From: Tsukamurella asaccharolytica
GTDB taxonomy: Bacteria; Actinomycetota; Actinomycetes; Mycobacteriales; Mycobacteriaceae
Direction of reading: 5' to 3'
Assembly (NCBI RefSeq): GCF_007858435.1
Contig: NZ_VIGW01000004.1
Location: 62,001 to 126,000, forward strand
DNA length: 64,000 bases
Under the pieces are notes generated by a model. The model saw nothing but the letters and a program-made list of their open reading frames with translations, ran no database searches and had not been told where the DNA came from. Shown here in pieces: positions 54,389 to 62,719 of this stretch; the stretch's first letter is position 1, and every line of letters begins with the position of its first letter. The translations under genes were made by a program, and so were the position numbers.

Positions 54389-54685
54389 ATGTCTGCCATC
54401 TCCCGGGACGAGGTCGCCCACCTGGCGCGCCTGTCGCGCCTCGCCGTCACCGACGAAGAGCTCGACGTCTTCGCCACGCAGCTCGATTCGATCCTCGAGC
54501 ACGTCAAGGTGGTGACCGAGGTCGGCGACGCGGACGTCGCGCCGCTCAGCCTCCCGGAGGGCAACGTGAACGTGAACCGCGCGGACAGCCCCGTCCGGAG
54601 CCTGACGCCGGAGGAGGCGCTCTCGGGCGCCCCGAACCGCGAGGGCGACCGCTTCGCCGTGCCGCGCATCCTGGGGGAGGAGTGA
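54389..54685 (+). CDS. gatC: Asp-tRNA(Asn)/Glu-tRNA(Gln) amidotransferase subunit C
   Basis: The 98-residue small subunit that wraps around GatA in the GatCAB complex forming Gln-tRNA and Asn-tRNA from mischarged precursors. It reads [19 protein letters not shown] and [20 protein letters not shown], the family's helix and linker, ending [16 protein letters not shown] overlap joins it to gatA (GAGTGACC), and so the two are translated together. Confidence 0.94.
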
Positions 54686-56178
54686 CCGTGACCGATCTGC
54701 GTGCATCGAACGAGATCACCGGCGCGAACGCCGCCGACCTGGCCGCGAAGATCGCTTCGGGTGACCTGAGCTCCGTTGAGGTCACCCAGGCGCACCTGGA
54801 CCGGATCGCCGAGGTCGACGGCGAGCTGGGCGCGTTCCTTCACGTCTCGGGCGAGGAGGCCCTCGCGGCCGCCCGCGCCGTCGACGAGGCCCGCGCCCGC
54901 GGCGAGCAGACCGCGTCCGCGCTCGCCGGCGTGCCGCTGGCGCTCAAGGACGTCTTCACCACGACCGACGCGCCCACCACCTGCGGCTCGAAGATCCTCG
55001 AGGGCTGGACGGCGCCGTACGACGCGACCGTCACCGCGAAGCTGCGCGCCGCGGGCATCCCGATCCTCGGCAAGACCAATATGGACGAGTTCGCCATGGG
55101 GTCGTCGACGGAGAACTCCGCCTACGGCGTCACCCGCAACCCGTGGGCGGCCGACCGCACCCCGGGCGGCTCGGGTGGCGGCAGCGCTGCCGCGCTCGCC
55201 TCCTACGAGGCGCCGCTCGCCATCGGTACCGACACCGGTGGCTCCATCCGGCAGCCCGCGTCGCTGACGGCCACCGTCGGCGTGCGGCCGACGTACGGCG
55301 CCGTCTCGCGCTACGGCTTGGTCGCCTGCGCCTCGTCGCTGGACCAGGGCGGGCCGTGCGCGCGCACCGTCCTCGACACCGCGCTCCTGCACGAAGTGAT
55401 CGCTGGGCACGACCCGCGCGATGCCACCTCGCTCGACGCCGCCGTGCCCGGCGTGGTGGCCGCCGCGCGCGCGGGTGCCTCCGGCGACCTGAAGGGTGTC
55501 CGCGTGGGCCTGGTCAAGGAGTTCGGCGCCGACGGCACCGAGGCCGGCGTCCAGGCGTCCTTCGAGAAGGCCGTGCAGCAGCTGCGCGACTTGGGCGCCG
55601 AGACGGTCGAGGTCTCGCTGCCCACGCTGCAGTACTCGCTCGCCGCCTACTACCTGATCCTCCCGTCGGAGGTCTCCTCGAACCTCGCCCGGTTCGACGC
55701 CATGCGCTACGGGCTCCGGACGGGCGACGACGGCACGCACTCGGCGGAGGAGGTCATGGCTCTCACCCGCGAGGCCGGCTTCGGCCCGGAGGTCAAGCGG
55801 CGCATCATGATCGGCACCTACGCGCTGAGCTCCGGCTACTACGACGCCTACTACGGCAGTGCGCAGAAGGTGCGCACCCTGCTCGCGGAGGACTTCGCGC
55901 GCGCCTACGAGCAGGTCGATGTGATCGTCTCGCCCACCACCCCCACCACGGCGTTCACGCTGGGGGAGAAGGTCGGCGATCCGCTGGCGATGTACCTGTT
56001 CGACCTGTTCACGCTGCCGACGAACCTCGCCGGCCACTGCGGCATGTCGGTGCCCTCGGGGCTGTCGGCGGACGACGGGCTCCCCGTCGGCCTGCAGATC
56101 CTGGCGCCCGCGCAGGCGGACGACCGGCTCTACAAGGTCGGCGCCGCGTACGAGGCCGCCCGCGGCCCCGTCGCCTGA
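54682..56178 (+). CDS. gatA: Asp-tRNA(Asn)/Glu-tRNA(Gln) amidotransferase subunit A
   Basis: The 498-residue amidase subunit that generates ammonia from glutamine. The Ser-cisSer-Lys triad is present: Lys89 in [10 protein letters not shown], the cis-Ser in [14 protein letters not shown], and the nucleophile Ser in [25 protein letters not shown] and [19 protein letters not shown] complete the signature. A second in-frame GTG two codons after the annotated start (54688) is an alternative. gatB follows only 5 kb later, behind an accessory insert, while in M. tuberculosis the interval holds only pfkA. Confidence 0.96.
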
Positions 56179-56229
56179 CAGCGCCCTGACCCCGCCCTCC
56201 GCGGCACCACTGGGTTCTTCCCACTTCCC

Positions 56230-56305
56230 GACTTAACAGCGTTAGTCCAGAGGGCTTCCTGCGGAAACGTCTGCACCCGGTGCTAGCTACCTGTCGGTAG
56301 CTGGA
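56230..56305 (+). repeat. Left copy of an imperfect 76-nt inverted repeat flanking the DUF559 gene
   Basis: This segment aligns without gaps to the reverse complement of 57231-57306 with 52 of 76 bases identical. The first 16 bases, GACTTAACAGCGTTAG, are identical in both, and GCTAGCTACC is identical 52 bases further in. A 7-bp stem with TGTC loop (56285-56302) lies at the inner end and includes the gene's stop codon. It occupies most of the gap between gatA and the gene. Confidence 0.7.
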
Positions 56306-57197
56306 AGTCGTGGTCGGCGAGAGCTCGGCGGACGCGGCGAAGGAGGACGTCCGGGCGGTTCGTCAGCGGCCCCGAGGTGACGATGATGAGGTTCCAGCCG
56401 AGGTCCTTCTCGAGCACGTTCCAACGCTCGACGTCGGCGGCGTGTTGCCTCGCGTCGCGATGGTAGGCGCCGTCGTATTCCACGGCGACCTTGTGCTGCT
56501 CGTCGGCGAGGTCGAGGAAGTACTCGCCGTCGAGCACGGGGACCTGCGGGATCATGGTCGTCAGTCCGGCGCGATGGAGCGTCAAGCGGGAGAAGGTCTC
56601 CCACGGCGATTGGGCGCGACCGTCGGCCTCGTCGAGAACGGCCCGGATGCGGGTGCCCCGCCACCACTCGCGTCGCGCGAGCTCGGCCTCGATCTGCGCC
56701 GCGGTCGCCATCGCCGGGCGCGACACCCAGGCCGGACGGTGCGCCGTCGCCGGCCTGCCGAAAACGCGGAGGCACTGGTCCGCGGCGGCGATGCCCTCGT
56801 CGCCGGCGGTGTAGCGAAGGAGGTCCATCGTCGTGCGGAGCGGTGAGGTGCACGGCAGCCCGTAGCGGACGACGATGTCGCCCGCGTCGAATTCGGCGGT
56901 GCGACTGATCACGCCGCGTCGGCGGATCTGCTTCGGCCCGAGAATTTCGACGGACTCCCGGGACTTCGCCATCGTGTGCAGGTGCAGTCGGGCCGCCGTC
57001 CAGCCGCACAGCACGGATCCGGGGTACTGGCGGATCATCGCCGTCGCGAGGTCTCCGACCGCGCCGCCGGTGCTTCCGCGCGGAACCCGGAAGCCGGGTG
57101 TGACGCAGAGGTAGTCCTTCTCCGCCGCATACCGTCCCACGGCGGCGATCAGGTCCGCCGACCGATGCACCTCGCGCTCGAAAGCCCCCATGTTCAT
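56283..57197 (-). CDS. DUF559/endonuclease-fold protein with AbiEi-like N-terminal region
   Basis: A 304-residue protein of unknown function. Residues 1-190 resemble AbiEi-type antitoxin-like proteins (VTPGFRVPRG, SVLCGWTAARLHLH, YGLPCTSPLRTTMDLLRYT); the C-terminal 100 residues look like a DUF559/very-short-patch-repair-like nuclease fold: SPWETFSRLTLHRAGL, DGEYFLDLADEQHKVAVEYD, GAYHRDARQHAADVERWNVL and WNLIIVTSG. The D...VEYDG and following H would fit a PD-(D/E)xK-type site. Base composition appears a little less GC-rich than the neighbours. It is bracketed by an inverted repeat and abuts no partner toxin gene. ATG 57197 is used (MNMGAF; the second ATG is two codons later). Confidence 0.7.
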   Translation of the reverse strand: MNMGAFEREVHRSADLIAAVGRYAAEKDYLCVTPGFRVPRGSTGGAVGDLATAMIRQYPGSVLCGWTAARLHLHTMAKSRESVEILGPKQIRRRGVISRTAEFDAGDIVVRYGLPCTSPLRTTMDLLRYTAGDEGIAAADQCLRVFGRPATAHRPAWVSRPAMATAAQIEAELARREWWRGTRIRAVLDEADGRAQSPWETFSRLTLHRAGLTTMIPQVPVLDGEYFLDLADEQHKVAVEYDGAYHRDARQHAADVERWNVLEKDLGWNLIIVTSGPLTNRPDVLLRRVRRALADHDFQLPTGS

Positions 57198-57230
57198 TGG
57201 ACGCGTGAGCCCGTGTCGTGGTTCCTCTTG

Positions 57231-57306
57231 ATCGGTTACCTGCGGGTAGCTAGCGACCGATGCAGGAGAAGTCCCAGGAGGAGACCTGGGCTAACGCTGT
57301 TAAGTC
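57231..57306 (-). repeat. Right copy of the imperfect 76-nt inverted repeat
   Basis: The reverse complement of this segment matches 56230-56305 at 52 of 76 positions with no gap. A weak 6-bp stem with TGCG loop sits at the inner end at the position of the left hairpin, and the outer end overlaps the TGA of the next gene (57305-57307). An extra hairpin CCCAGG-AGGAGA-CCTGGG (57273-57290) is found only in this copy. Confidence 0.7.
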
Positions 57307-58522
57307 AGATATTTGGGAGTGGTGCCGCTGCTCGCGCGACGAGGTCCGCGACCAGCTCAGATCCCTGCCGCTCGTCGTAGCGGTGCCCCAGGCCGGGCGG
57401 CGGCGCGGTGGCACCCAGCAGGTCGACGGTCGCCTGGACGAACGAGAGCACGGGCAGCCACGGCGGCCGCGGGGTGGCGCGCCCCGAGCCCGACGCGGCC
57501 CGCTCCGGCGGTGCGACCAGCAGCCGCGCCGACCAGATCCCGACCGGATCGGAGGCGTTGAGCTGGGCGGGCCCCGCAAGCGCCACGCCAGCGGGCGTGC
57601 CCACCTGCAGCGTCGCGGCGACGGGGGTGCCGAGCTCGGCCGCGCGCCGCTGCGCCGCGAGCACCCCCACCGTTCCCAGGCTCTGCCCGTACACCCGGAC
57701 CCGGGTCGACGGTGCCCGCCGGTGCAGCTCGTCGATCAGCGCGGCCGTGCTCGCGGCGGCGGCGTCGCGATACAGGACGAACGACTGCCAGCTCGGCATC
57801 TCGGTGTACTGCACCGCCACGATCGCGCTGTCGCCGTGCAGCGACTCCTCCACGCCGCGGACGAAATGCGGATCCACCCAGCCGGATCCGGTGGGCACCG
57901 CGATCACCACCGCCCGCCGCGCGAGGCCGCCCGCGGCGATGAGCCGGTCCACCGCCACCGCGGCGCGCGCGGAAGGGGTGGCGCCGTCGGTCAGGGAGGC
58001 GTACGCCCGCACGCCCGGTGCCGAGGACTCGATACCCGCGAAGCGCTCCGCGTACGACGCGGCCTCCGCCGAGGTCGCCGTTGCGGGCCAGGCGATCCCG
58101 GCCGTCACCGCGACACCGGCCAGCACCGCGACACCGGCCAGCACCGCGACGGCGGCCCGGGCGCGCACGGGCCACAGCGCGCCGCCCGCCAACGGCGCCG
58201 CCATGACGGCACCGGCGAGCGTGGCGAAGGCAACCGGCCCCACCGGTTCCGCACCGGCCGCGACCCGAAGGTGGTTCTGCCACAACACCCACCCCACCAG
58301 CGCCGCCGCCAGCAGGTACATCGCGAGGCGGCCGCCACCGTCGGACGGCTCCCGCCGGCGCACGACCACCCAACCGGCCAGCGCCCCGATGGCGCCGAAC
58401 AGTAGGCTCACCGCGAATTGGACCGCGACGGCGCGCGGCAATTGGTTCGGGGACAGCGCGCACGCCACTCCCACGGCGTAGCCGGTGAGCACCCCGCCGC
58501 GGAGGTGCGGCCGGGCGATCAC
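57305..58522 (-). CDS. Membrane alpha/beta-hydrolase family protein (Abhydrolase_9 type)
   Basis: A 405-residue protein. The N-terminal 140 residues hold about five TM segments (AVQFAVSLLFGAIGALAGWVV, LAMYLLAAALVGWVLW, FATLAGAVMAAPLAGGALW, AVAVLAGVAVLAGVAVTAG), the rest is an alpha/beta hydrolase domain: AVVIAVPTGSGWVDPHFVRG, ESLHGDSAIVAVQYTEMPSW, and the nucleophile elbow VYGQSLGTVGVLA (GxSxG). The actinobacterial family is thought to act on lipids outside or at the membrane. GTG 58522 overlaps the stop of the phospholipase gene as GTGA. Its own stop codon lies within the right inverted repeat. Confidence 0.82.
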   Translation of the reverse strand: MIARPHLRGGVLTGYAVGVACALSPNQLPRAVAVQFAVSLLFGAIGALAGWVVVRRREPSDGGGRLAMYLLAAALVGWVLWQNHLRVAAGAEPVGPVAFATLAGAVMAAPLAGGALWPVRARAAVAVLAGVAVLAGVAVTAGIAWPATATSAEAASYAERFAGIESSAPGVRAYASLTDGATPSARAAVAVDRLIAAGGLARRAVVIAVPTGSGWVDPHFVRGVEESLHGDSAIVAVQYTEMPSWQSFVLYRDAAAASTAALIDELHRRAPSTRVRVYGQSLGTVGVLAAQRRAAELGTPVAATLQVGTPAGVALAGPAQLNASDPVGIWSARLLVAPPERAASGSGRATPRPPWLPVLSFVQATVDLLGATAPPPGLGHRYDERQGSELVADLVARAAAPLPNI

Positions 58523-59082
58523 AGCCGGTCTCCGCCCGTGAGCCAGCTCGTGACGAGCTCGCGTGCGGACTCGGCGCGCGGCGGACCGTCGTGTTGGCGC
58601 CAGGTGTTGGCGCGCACCGCCAGCACCGCCAACCCGGCCACCTCGGTGCACTGGCGGCGCTGCGCCACCGGACGCGCCGCACAGGCTGCGGCCAGTCGGT
58701 CGGCGAAGGCATCGTCGATCCGGAGGCGGGCCCACCCGCCCAGGGGTCGCCCGGCGGCGTCGGCGTGGCGGAGCAGGTCGTAGCCCAGGTCGTGCGCCTT
58801 GCACGGCGCGTCGAAATCCGCGGGCAGCCGCACGACGGACGAGCAATCGCCGTGCGGGTTCACGGCGTAGCCCGGGCCGGCCGCCGCGGCGTACCCCAGG
58901 CCGCGCGGCACCGCGCGGACCTGGGCGGCGGCGTCGAGCGCGGGGTCGGTGACGGCGCGGACCGCGGCCGCGGTGGCGGGGTCGTCGCGCTCGGGGGTGT
59001 CGCCCGCGGCGGCGGGGAGGGAGATCCCGAACGACAGGGGGACGGCGAGTACGGCTGCGGCGGCGAGCATGCGACGGTTCAT
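58519..59082 (-). CDS. Secreted prokaryotic phospholipase A2-like protein
   Basis: A 187-residue exported enzyme of the bacterial PLA2 group (PF09056-type). The signal peptide is MLAAAAVLAVPLSFGISLPA with cleavage near AAAG. The catalytic HD pair lies in APCKAHDLGYDLLRHADA, the same C..HD.GY pattern as in the Streptomyces violaceoruber enzyme, preceded by the calcium-binding-type segment GDCSSVVRLP. Four or more cysteines (GDCSS, APCKAH, AACAAR, RQCTEV) can form two disulfides. It should hydrolyse sn-2 ester bonds of phospholipids. It is coupled to the membrane hydrolase gene by a GTGA overlap and is divergent from a two-component operon. Confidence 0.85.
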   Translation of the reverse strand: MNRRMLAAAAVLAVPLSFGISLPAAAGDTPERDDPATAAAVRAVTDPALDAAAQVRAVPRGLGYAAAAGPGYAVNPHGDCSSVVRLPADFDAPCKAHDLGYDLLRHADAAGRPLGGWARLRIDDAFADRLAAACAARPVAQRRQCTEVAGLAVLAVRANTWRQHDGPPRAESARELVTSWLTGGDRL

Positions 59083-61207: not shown

Positions 61208-62719
61208 ATGAGTGCCGAGCCCCACGACATCGACCTTCCCGAGTACGCGGACGTCGTCGCCCGCTACGAGCCCGTCATGGGCATGGAGGTCCACGTCGAG
61301 CTCGGCACGGCCACCAAGATGTTCTGCGGTTGCCGCACCGAGTTCGGCGCCGAACCGAATACCCAGGTGTGCCCCACGTGCCTCGGCATGCCCGGCGCGC
61401 TGCCTGTGGCCAACCGCGAGGCGGTGCGCTCGGCCATCCGCATCGGCCTCGCCCTGAACTGCTCGATCCGGCCGAGCTCGGTGTTCGCGCGGAAGAACTA
61501 CTTCTACCCGGATCAGCCGAAGAACTACCAGATCAGTCAGTACGAGGATCCGATCGCCTACGACGGCTACCTCGACGTCCCGCTCGAGGACGGCACGACG
61601 TGGCGCGTGGAGATCGAGCGCGCGCACATGGAGGAGGACACCGGCAAGTCCACGCACGTGGGTTCTGCGACGGGGCGGATCCACGGCGCCTCGCACTCGC
61701 TGCTCGATTTCAACCGCGCGGGCGTGCCGCTGGTGGAGATCGTCTCCCGGCCCATCGAGGGCGCGGGGGAGCGTGCACCCGAGATCGCGCGTGCCTACGT
61801 GACCGCGCTGCGCGACCTGCTCGCCTCGCTCGACGTCTCCGACGTCCGCATGGATCAGGGCTCGATGCGCTGCGACTCGAACGTCTCGCTCAAGCCGATC
61901 GGTGCCACGGAGTTCGGCACCCGCACCGAGACCAAGAACGTCAACTCGTTGCGCTCGGTCGAGGTGGCCGTGCGGTACGAGATGCGGCGCCAGGCCGCGG
62001 TGCTCGACGGCGGCGGCGAGGTGGTCCTCGAGACCCGGCACTTCCAGGAGGGCGACGGCACGACCACTGCCGGTCGGCCCAAGGAGACCGCCGACGACTA
62101 CCGGTACTTCCCGGACCCCGACCTCGGCCCCGTCGCGCCGCCGGCGGAGCTCGTCGAGGAACTGCGGGCGACGATTCCCGAGCTGCCGTGGCTGCGCCGG
62201 GCCCGGATCCAGTCCGACTGGGCGCTGTCCGACGAGGTGATGCGCGATCTGGTGAACCTCGGCGCGATCGACCGGATCATCGCCACCGTCGACGCCGGGG
62301 CCACCCCGGATGCGGCGCGGTCGTGGTGGGGCAGCTTCCTGCCGCAGCAGGCGAACACGCGCTCCGTCGAGCTGGACGCCCTGGCCATCACACCGGCCCA
62401 GGTCGCCCGCGTGATCGCCCTGGTCGACGAGGGCAAACTCACCAGCAAGCTGGCCCAGCAGGTCATCGTCGGCGTGCTCGACGGCGAGGGCGAGCCCGAC
62501 GAGGTCGTCGCCGCACGCGGCCTGGAGGTGGTGCGCGACGACGGTGCGCTGCAGAAGGCCGTCGACGACGCGCTCGCCGCCAACCCCGACATCGTGGACA
62601 AGATCAAGGCCGGCAAGGTCCAGGCCGCGGGCAAGATCGTCGGCGACGTCATGAAGGCCACCCGCGGCCAGGCCGACGCAGCGCGCGTCCGGGAACTGGT
62701 CCTCGCCGCCTGCGAGTGA
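61208..62719 (+). CDS. gatB: Asp-tRNA(Asn)/Glu-tRNA(Gln) amidotransferase subunit B
   Basis: The 503-residue tRNA-binding kinase-like subunit of GatCAB. Signatures: [20 protein letters not shown] then [19 protein letters not shown] with zinc-binding cysteines, [19 protein letters not shown], the ATP-site region [27 protein letters not shown], and [20 protein letters not shown]. The C-terminal YqeY-like tail covers about residues 350-503. It is separated from gatCA by the accessory insert and has its own promoter-like hexamer. It is convergent with the lppZ-like gene. Confidence 0.96.

Follow-up and report, generated by a model that had tools for sequence, protein, structure and literature searches.

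Single genes that lie between their own inverted repeats are described for the REPtrons and TIRtrons, in which a RAYT or TIRYT gene is flanked by inverted REP or long TIR repeats. Several unrelated repeat types occur, each with its own gene. The REP and TIR copies are dispersed, mostly downstream of coding regions, and some TIRs are self-complementary. Some REP/TIR families are repeated in the genome and others are not (all according to PMC3733652).

A locus of similar layout is present in Tsukamurella asaccharolytica, on a stretch of 64,000 nucleotides of contig NZ_VIGW01000004.1 that is called the window here. We consider it probable that this locus belongs to a group of related repeat-plus-nuclease elements with a REPtron- or REPIN-like layout, in which a DUF559 protein replaces the Y1 transposase. 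Each element of this family would consist of one AbiEi-like/PD-(D/E)XK-type (DUF559) gene between inverted, often palindromic repeats of about 45-75 bp.

The DUF559 gene of the window and its bracketing repeats

An earlier note on this DNA had described an imperfect 76-nt inverted repeat around one gene. When 56230-56305 was aligned with the reverse complement of 57231-57306, 52 of 76 positions matched without a gap. None of 200 Markov shuffles reached 52 (mean 42.4, maximum 47), so the significance against shuffled sequence, which the note had left to be checked, holds. The best 76-base window across 1.5 kb x 1.5 kb was 53. The outer 16 bases are the same in both repeats, which also agree exactly in GCTAGCTACC at offset 52, as had been noted. 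Within the window, the 14-mer CTTAACAGCGTTAG (up to 2 mismatches) is confined to the two cassette ends. A general repeat finder run on the window did not return the flanking pair.

The flanks were also scored by comparing the upstream flank of a gene with the reverse complement of its downstream flank. As controls we took non-overlapping window ORFs of at least 200 aa with a third-position GC of at least 85%, which are reading frames and not annotated genes. Of the 42 ORFs kept, 40 were far enough from the window ends for scoring and one of these was the DUF559 gene. Its score was 41, against at most 27 for the 39 control ORFs. With 0 of 200 shuffles and no comparable control ORF, a chance origin of the repeat was rejected.

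A small hairpin is possible at the inner end of both window repeats. This part of the earlier note stands, yet folding of the whole 76-nt ends as single strands exceeds that of shuffles by little (z -1.56 and -1.92). Folding is very strong in two of the solo 63-bp copies described below (z -8.09 and -11.78); as palindromes, the cassette flanks of the window family are weaker than such solo copies. When the window was scanned for palindromes that contain the core, there was no hit; since the scan missed even the window's own divergent ends, it says little. A known RNA family was rejected, with no Rfam match at E <= 0.1 in window 56000-57600 and none at the gathering score in six element-holding loci.

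Between the cassette ends the DUF559 gene stands alone, with its stop codon in the left repeat, in agreement with the single enclosed gene of the note. The placement in the gatCA-gatB interval was likewise correct: the gatA-named frame ends at 56178 and the gatB-named frame starts at 61208, with the cassette inside. At the right, the stop codon of the neighbouring reading frame (57305-57307) overlaps the repeat end, which the note had also read. The coordinates are collected in Table 1.

Table 1. Positions of the cassette, its neighbours and related features (window coordinates unless a contig or locus is given)
Feature	Position	Strand	Basis or remark
gatA, left neighbour, convergent with the cassette gene	54682..56178	+	name per T. 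tyrosinosolvens annotation
Left flanking repeat, ~75 nt	56230..56305	+	holds DUF559 gene stop codon; 52/76 identity to right repeat
16-nt outer terminal sequence GACTTAACAGCGTTAG	56230..56245	+	
Inner core of left repeat, TTCCTGCGGAA	56256..56266	+	solo 63-bp consensus TCCTGGGGAAACG
DUF559 / REase_MTES_1575 gene, 304 aa	56283..57197	-	Pfam
Predicted nuclease-like domain, residues 214-293	56319..56558	-	Pfam and conserved residues
AbiEi-like region, residues 60-129	56811..57020	-	PADLOC AbiEi 2e-7
Right flanking repeat, inverted copy	57231..57306	-	upstream of DUF559 gene; outer end overlaps hydrolase stop codon
Inner core of right repeat, CTCCTGGGACT	57270..57280	-	offset as in left core
16-nt outer terminal sequence, inverted copy	57291..57306	-	
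Alpha/beta-hydrolase family gene, right neighbour	57305..58523	-	5' end approximate; product named by T. tyrosinosolvens analogy
Element outer end over the last bases of a neighbouring gene	window 57291-57307; L272:2271-2286; L273:2109-2124; L274:2279-2294		
Interrupted DUF559-family genes of the own genome (G000)	C21:44817-45626; C21:248872-249695; C2:8549-9375		

The window protein matched Pfam DUF559 at residues 224-288 (1.6e-5, 25.1 bits, above the cut-off of 20.6) and Pfam MTES_1575 at residues 214-293 (3.4e-7, 30.7 bits, below the cut-off of 38.2). Among 28 family members, MTES_1575 was found in all 28, DUF559 in 26 and AbiEi_1 in 6, each at E <= 0.1. D229, Y241, G243, H246, D255, N260 and W268 are invariant in the 28 members and E240 is nearly invariant. 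We take DUF559 to be part of the PD-(D/E)XK nuclease superfamily and assign the window protein to it, as a predicted member, by the family match and the conserved acidic site. AlphaFold, run from three sequences, gave a pLDDT of 36 and was useless, so the assignment of a nuclease fold is based on Pfam and the conserved residues. A profile search of the PDB returned weak matches alone (3hrl, E 0.023; 6xrw, E 0.046).

Besides the window gene, the own genome contains four DUF559 relatives. Of these five family genes, three are interrupted by an internal stop or a split into two frames, and the family therefore appears to turn over. Many paralogues have a common start region VRP(I/M)(H/G/D)(M/V) despite divergent N-termini, for example at L136, L145 and L148.

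Window-type cassettes and solo palindromes in Tsukamurella

The genus comparison covered 16 genomes, one per species (G000 to G015). The protein is 95% identical to the window product in T. tyrosinosolvens NCTC13231, 87% in T. pseudospumae and 85% in T. spumae. The cassette lies beside gatA in six of the 16 genomes, nearby in a seventh, and is absent at the locus in six. In these last six (G001, G002, G004, G008, G010 and G013) gatA is followed by a CMD-type gene with neither cassette nor repeat, and the empty site that the earlier note had proposed to seek was thus found in six related species. G003, G007, G015 and T. tyrosinosolvens have the cassette between gatA and CMD; in G009 it lies between CMD and the hydrolase gene, and in G000, G005 and G012, where CMD was not found, between gatA and the hydrolase gene. 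The missing CMD in these three (window 56178-57305; L084; L103) is possibly due to a deletion between two element copies.

The cassette gene of G005 is inverted relative to gatA. At the gatA site of G014 there is a bare 63-bp element only; a clade member with 68% identity is found in this genome at C1:2349449-2350339, at a distance of 1.78 Mb from gatA, and has the lineage-specific variant ACTTAACGTCGTTAGC at both ends. G006 (L073:3330-4785) has kept the cassette ends with the DUF559 gene replaced by other reading frames, which by eye we take to be DoxX-like and an apparent remnant of an IS110-type transposase. In G011, gatA was not found. No target-site duplication was evident by eye at the gatA-site cassettes. 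As the cassette occupies the same neighbourhood in seven species, its inheritance is mostly vertical. The candidate one-gene cassette of the earlier note is partly supported, by its discreteness, its dedicated ends, the empty loci, the second location of a relative in G014 and the inversion in G005, and is qualified by the mostly vertical inheritance.

Several NCTC13231 records that are labelled plasmids carry rpsD, the RNA polymerase alpha gene, rplQ, gatA, serA, purE and selAB (L264, L272-L278; NZ_LR134446, 451, 459, 461, 464, 468). These T. tyrosinosolvens records look like mislabelled pieces of the chromosome.

The outer sequence of the cassette is also found elsewhere. In the own genome, GACTTAACAGCGTTAG has 12 exact copies and one with a single mismatch, and 7 of the 12 belong to separate 63-bp palindromes. 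The copies are laid out as four inward-facing 63-bp pairs, the 1077-bp window pair and three single ends, each followed by the rest of a 75-nt cassette-like element, one of them diverged. The 76-nt right end was matched in 12 of the 16 genus genomes at E <= 0.01. The 16-mer ACTTAACAGCGTTAGC (up to 2 mismatches) was found in 15 of 16; G001, G002, G004, G010 and G013 had 1-2 hits only, where the backwards control gave 0-2 per genome. When the two cassette ends were subtracted, the GACTTAAC hits numbered 5-18 per genome where the window-type gene is present (eight genomes) and 0-7 where it is missing (also eight genomes; Mann-Whitney p = 0.0016, with no correction for kinship). Repeats conserved in the absence of the gene, which the earlier note had held against a cassette, do occur: solo copies persist without the gene in G006, G008 and G013, and are diverged or decayed in G001, G002 and G004.

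The four 63-bp sites that could be placed on the T. tyrosinosolvens annotation lie at gene ends, two convergent, two tandem and none divergent. Three of these elements overlap the final 2-7 bases of an annotated gene, as though stop codons were preferred for insertion or came with the element. The single 75-nt element that could be placed on this annotation falls within an SRPBCC gene, downstream of rplQ. It seems to be at the same place in five genomes (L014:2012, L076, L089, L091, L095; flanks compared by eye), and many 75-nt elements read DLTALAQ..SW(G/D)..C..C in one frame, for example at L072:3269 and L015:2026.

Seven solo sites of the own genome were looked up in T. tyrosinosolvens. At five of them both genomes carry an element, at L015 it is missing in T. 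tyrosinosolvens, and the L009 site gave no alignment, with an end of up to 3 mismatches nearby in L278. At one orthologous site, which adjoins the 3-isopropylmalate dehydrogenase and MFS genes, the 63-bp element is kept in ten aligned genomes (G010 and G012 had no alignable segment and were left out). The elements of G007 and G009 have a changed inner part there; the site is diverged in G004 and G001, decayed in G002 and without an element in G011. In G004, both arms changed in concert. Each of arm columns 1-16 was paired in 32-36 of 36 unique 63-bp elements, a set that had been chosen for arm complementarity of at least 12 of 16.

These solo copies could be read as unoccupied targets of a homing-type selfish gene, in which the nuclease cuts the 63-bp palindrome and repair from the copy that bears the cassette inserts the gene. 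The bare element of G014 fits this explanation, as it lies just downstream of gatA at the place of the cassette in G003, G007 and G015, and so does the core that is common to cassette ends and solo elements. However, each cassette end is nearly complete, with outer arm, core and its own inner part, and is not half of a split 63-bp element. Six species have loci without a trace of the element, and the own genome has four 63-bp elements and three single ends but only a single window-type cassette. We therefore regard homing as unlikely.

Flanking repeats and palindromes of other DUF559-family genes

The genus search for DUF559 genes gave 42 rows; 33 genes with flanking DNA were tested and nine rows were left out. 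In 30 of the 33, the inverted-repeat flanks scored above all 200 shuffles, L151 passing narrowly with 29 against 28. No flanking repeats were detectable at the other three, L178, L143 and L039. A profile search detected relatives in 78 of 121 genomes and 23 of 31 genera of the family. Of the 24 loci returned from outside the genus, 14 have flanks that beat all 200 shuffles; 12 score at least 33, and L208 and L213 pass narrowly. The remaining 10 genes had no detectable flanking repeats. A first run outside the genus, with 100 shuffles and slightly different flanks, had given 12 of 24.

The arm sequences differ between groups (GACTTAAC, ATTGAAC, GTTCTGCGA, TTCGGTGC, GGTTTCGGCGG, TCTCCACC and others), and many of the repeat ends are near-palindromes. 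When the arm types were placed on a tree of 28 proteins, 6 changes were counted for 7 groups, which is the minimum and was matched by 0 of 200 shuffles; the labels were set by hand and near-copies contribute to this result. The ATTGAAC group alone requires 2 changes on the protein tree. The repeat sequence is thus specific to the protein clade and diversifies together with the protein. The earlier note had counted an absence of the repeats around paralogues against its cassette. The exact window repeat is indeed missing at distant paralogues, and analogous family-specific repeats are present there.

A core CC[GC]CAGG or its complement CCTG(G/C)GG was found in at least one flank of 16 of the 30 bracketed genus genes (shuffled mean 1.9, maximum 6). 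Outside the genus it occurred in 5 of 14 (shuffled mean 1.8, maximum 5), which is not clearly above chance since the shuffled maximum is also 5. A universal core was rejected, as CC[GC]CAGG is present in some families only.

Three arm families, GACTTAAC, ATTGAAC and TGGTGGGTT, occur as dispersed copies. The ATTGAAC pattern ATTGAACRNYGTT-N24-46-AACRNYGTTCAAT had 18 occurrences in the own genome; 11 of the 16 genus genomes carried it, and the backwards control was 0 everywhere. The other counts were 20 (G005), 16 (G002), 15 each (G008 and G015), 11 each (G004 and G009), 6 (G003), 4 each (G001 and G012) and 2 (G014). ATTGAAC copies lie on both sides of the own-genome DUF559 genes on C2 and C11. 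G004, with its 11 palindromes, gave no hit for DUF559 at E 1e-20, whether searched by protein or by profile. The pattern TGGTGGGTT-N28-50-AACCCACCA gave 33, 10, 12, 10, 13, 34 and 34 copies in seven genomes of another genus (control 0) and none in one genome of a different genus. In genus g11 (G072, G088, G103) there are 33-34 copies of the 51-bp TGGTGGGTT palindrome, one of them in L266, and these genomes would be a good place for seeking recent movement.

Pairing of the arms was analysed in 16 unique 59-bp ATTGAAC elements from the retrieved loci. Part of the arms is fixed by the search pattern, which leaves columns 8 and 10 half-constrained, so the free evidence lies in columns 9 and 14-19. 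At column 9 all 16 elements pair and 6 double changes were counted; columns 14-19 pair in 13-16 of 16, compared with 21-25% for a slid partner.

Such arms that covary, as in the stem of a terminator, would also be expected if the palindromes were cis-acting hairpins of the host (bidirectional terminators or stabilisers of mRNA ends) or operators of the protein, with genes that accumulate beside them or are autoregulated. The four annotated 63-bp sites at gene ends, none between divergent genes, agree with this explanation. AbiEi proteins are autorepressors that bind inverted repeats, which also favours operators. What it leaves unexplained is the bracketing of DUF559 genes but of 0 of 39 control ORFs, the arms that follow the clade and the copy downstream of the gene, and we think it improbable. 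The TetR operator that the earlier note had offered as an alternative does not, by itself, explain the downstream copy and the copies at the ends of unrelated genes. An ordinary DNA transposon, in which the 63-bp elements would be MITEs mobilised by an unseen DDE transposase with the DUF559 gene as a passenger, would account for terminal inverted repeats, small non-coding copies and the occupation of different loci, but is most improbable, given that no second gene lies between the window ends, no target duplication is evident and the unrelated repeats of the same layout at other DUF559 genes would need many unseen transposases.

Some further candidates were considered. A Y1/RAYT mobiliser in the same genus was rejected: Y1_Tnp PF01797 was found in 0 of the 16 genus genomes, with the control positive in 5 of 14. 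The ends of integron attC sites follow the consensus RYYYAAC ... GTTRRRY; GACTTAAC fits it, ATTGAAC and TGGTGGGTT do not, and an integron cassette, judged by these ends, is unlikely. A phage origin found no support, as the profile scan of viral contigs gave no relative. There were 31 viral-contig stretches with one copy of the 16-mer each and none with two, which were taken as chance matches.

Proposed mechanism and relation to known systems

The homing, hairpin or operator and transposon explanations rank below the repeat-plus-nuclease element, because none of them explains both the family-wide bracketing and the match of arm type to protein clade. The bracketing, the dispersed copies, the kept complementarity of the arms, the presence and absence of the cassette, its second location and its inversion are all directly observed. 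We suggest the following mechanism for this element. The protein would bind its cognate palindrome, possibly via the AbiEi-like part, and nick or cut it or the cruciform or hairpin that it forms. Repair of the break, or replication, may then copy the palindromes, and rarely the whole cassette, to new sites. The same copying could keep the palindrome copies alike. In its present state the element appears to behave as an old, slowly moving resident, much like RAYTs and REPINs.

A wider proposal, which we make tentatively and hold a little short of evenly balanced, is that these elements are a new class of mobile repeats in the Mycobacteriales, with the DUF559 protein and its AbiEi-like, putatively DNA-binding region as the sole dedicated enzyme of many independent palindrome families. 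The proteins of each clade would copy the palindrome that belongs to them and, on rare occasions, their cassette. If true, this would be a counterpart of the REPIN-RAYT system that arose by convergence and is independent of HUH enzymes, and a large family of nuclease genes so far unexplained would gain a function. A further nuclease family linked to palindromes in the same way, unrelated to the first, would show that the arrangement evolved repeatedly. It would also suggest a role for many actinobacterial DUF559/MTES_1575 genes, one that can be tested with small proteins and 60-bp DNAs. In the literature covered, mainly open-access and with bioRxiv outside its scope, no published account of an association between DUF559 and palindromes was found among the accessible texts, and the matches to the literal repeat strings concern other subjects by their titles. 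The system seems to be a counterpart, so far undescribed, of the known bacterial repeat systems that pair a palindrome with a transposase.

The window protein shares the family of its C-terminal domain with the Vsr-like/DUF559 endonucleases. Similarity to PRK09767, an E. coli example of these endonucleases, is weak; it was matched by two of four proteins scanned (E 0.0022 and 0.057) and not by the window protein and one other. Compared with these endonucleases, the window protein is larger, has an added N-terminal region and is encoded between bracketing repeats. Its AbiEi-like region is common to the AbiE type IV toxin-antitoxin systems. There the adjacent partner is the nucleotidyltransferase toxin AbiEii, whereas here the neighbours are gatA and the hydrolase gene, and the nuclease-like domain is fused instead.

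With the exact patterns used, the largest counts in a genome were 20 for the ATTGAAC and 34 for the TGGTGGGTT palindromes, and the REPIN numbers of Pseudomonas are much higher. REPINs are also short dispersed palindromes that are kept in a lineage with a cognate nuclease-type gene, according to PMC3116915, but their enzyme is a different one. The REPtrons and TIRtrons, as described in PMC3733652, resemble the DUF559 elements in layout and in their gene-specific repeat types. They differ in the enzyme, a Y1/HUH tyrosine transposase there and a DUF559/MTES_1575 protein with an AbiEi-like region here. The GTAG or CGTC foot, which tags the REPtrons, is absent by inspection at the outer ends of GACTTAAC, ATTGAAC and TGGTGGGTT. 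Since the defining Y1 enzyme is absent, the DUF559 elements are not members of the REPtrons. Provided that the proposed mechanism holds, however, the DUF559 element would work like a REPtron.
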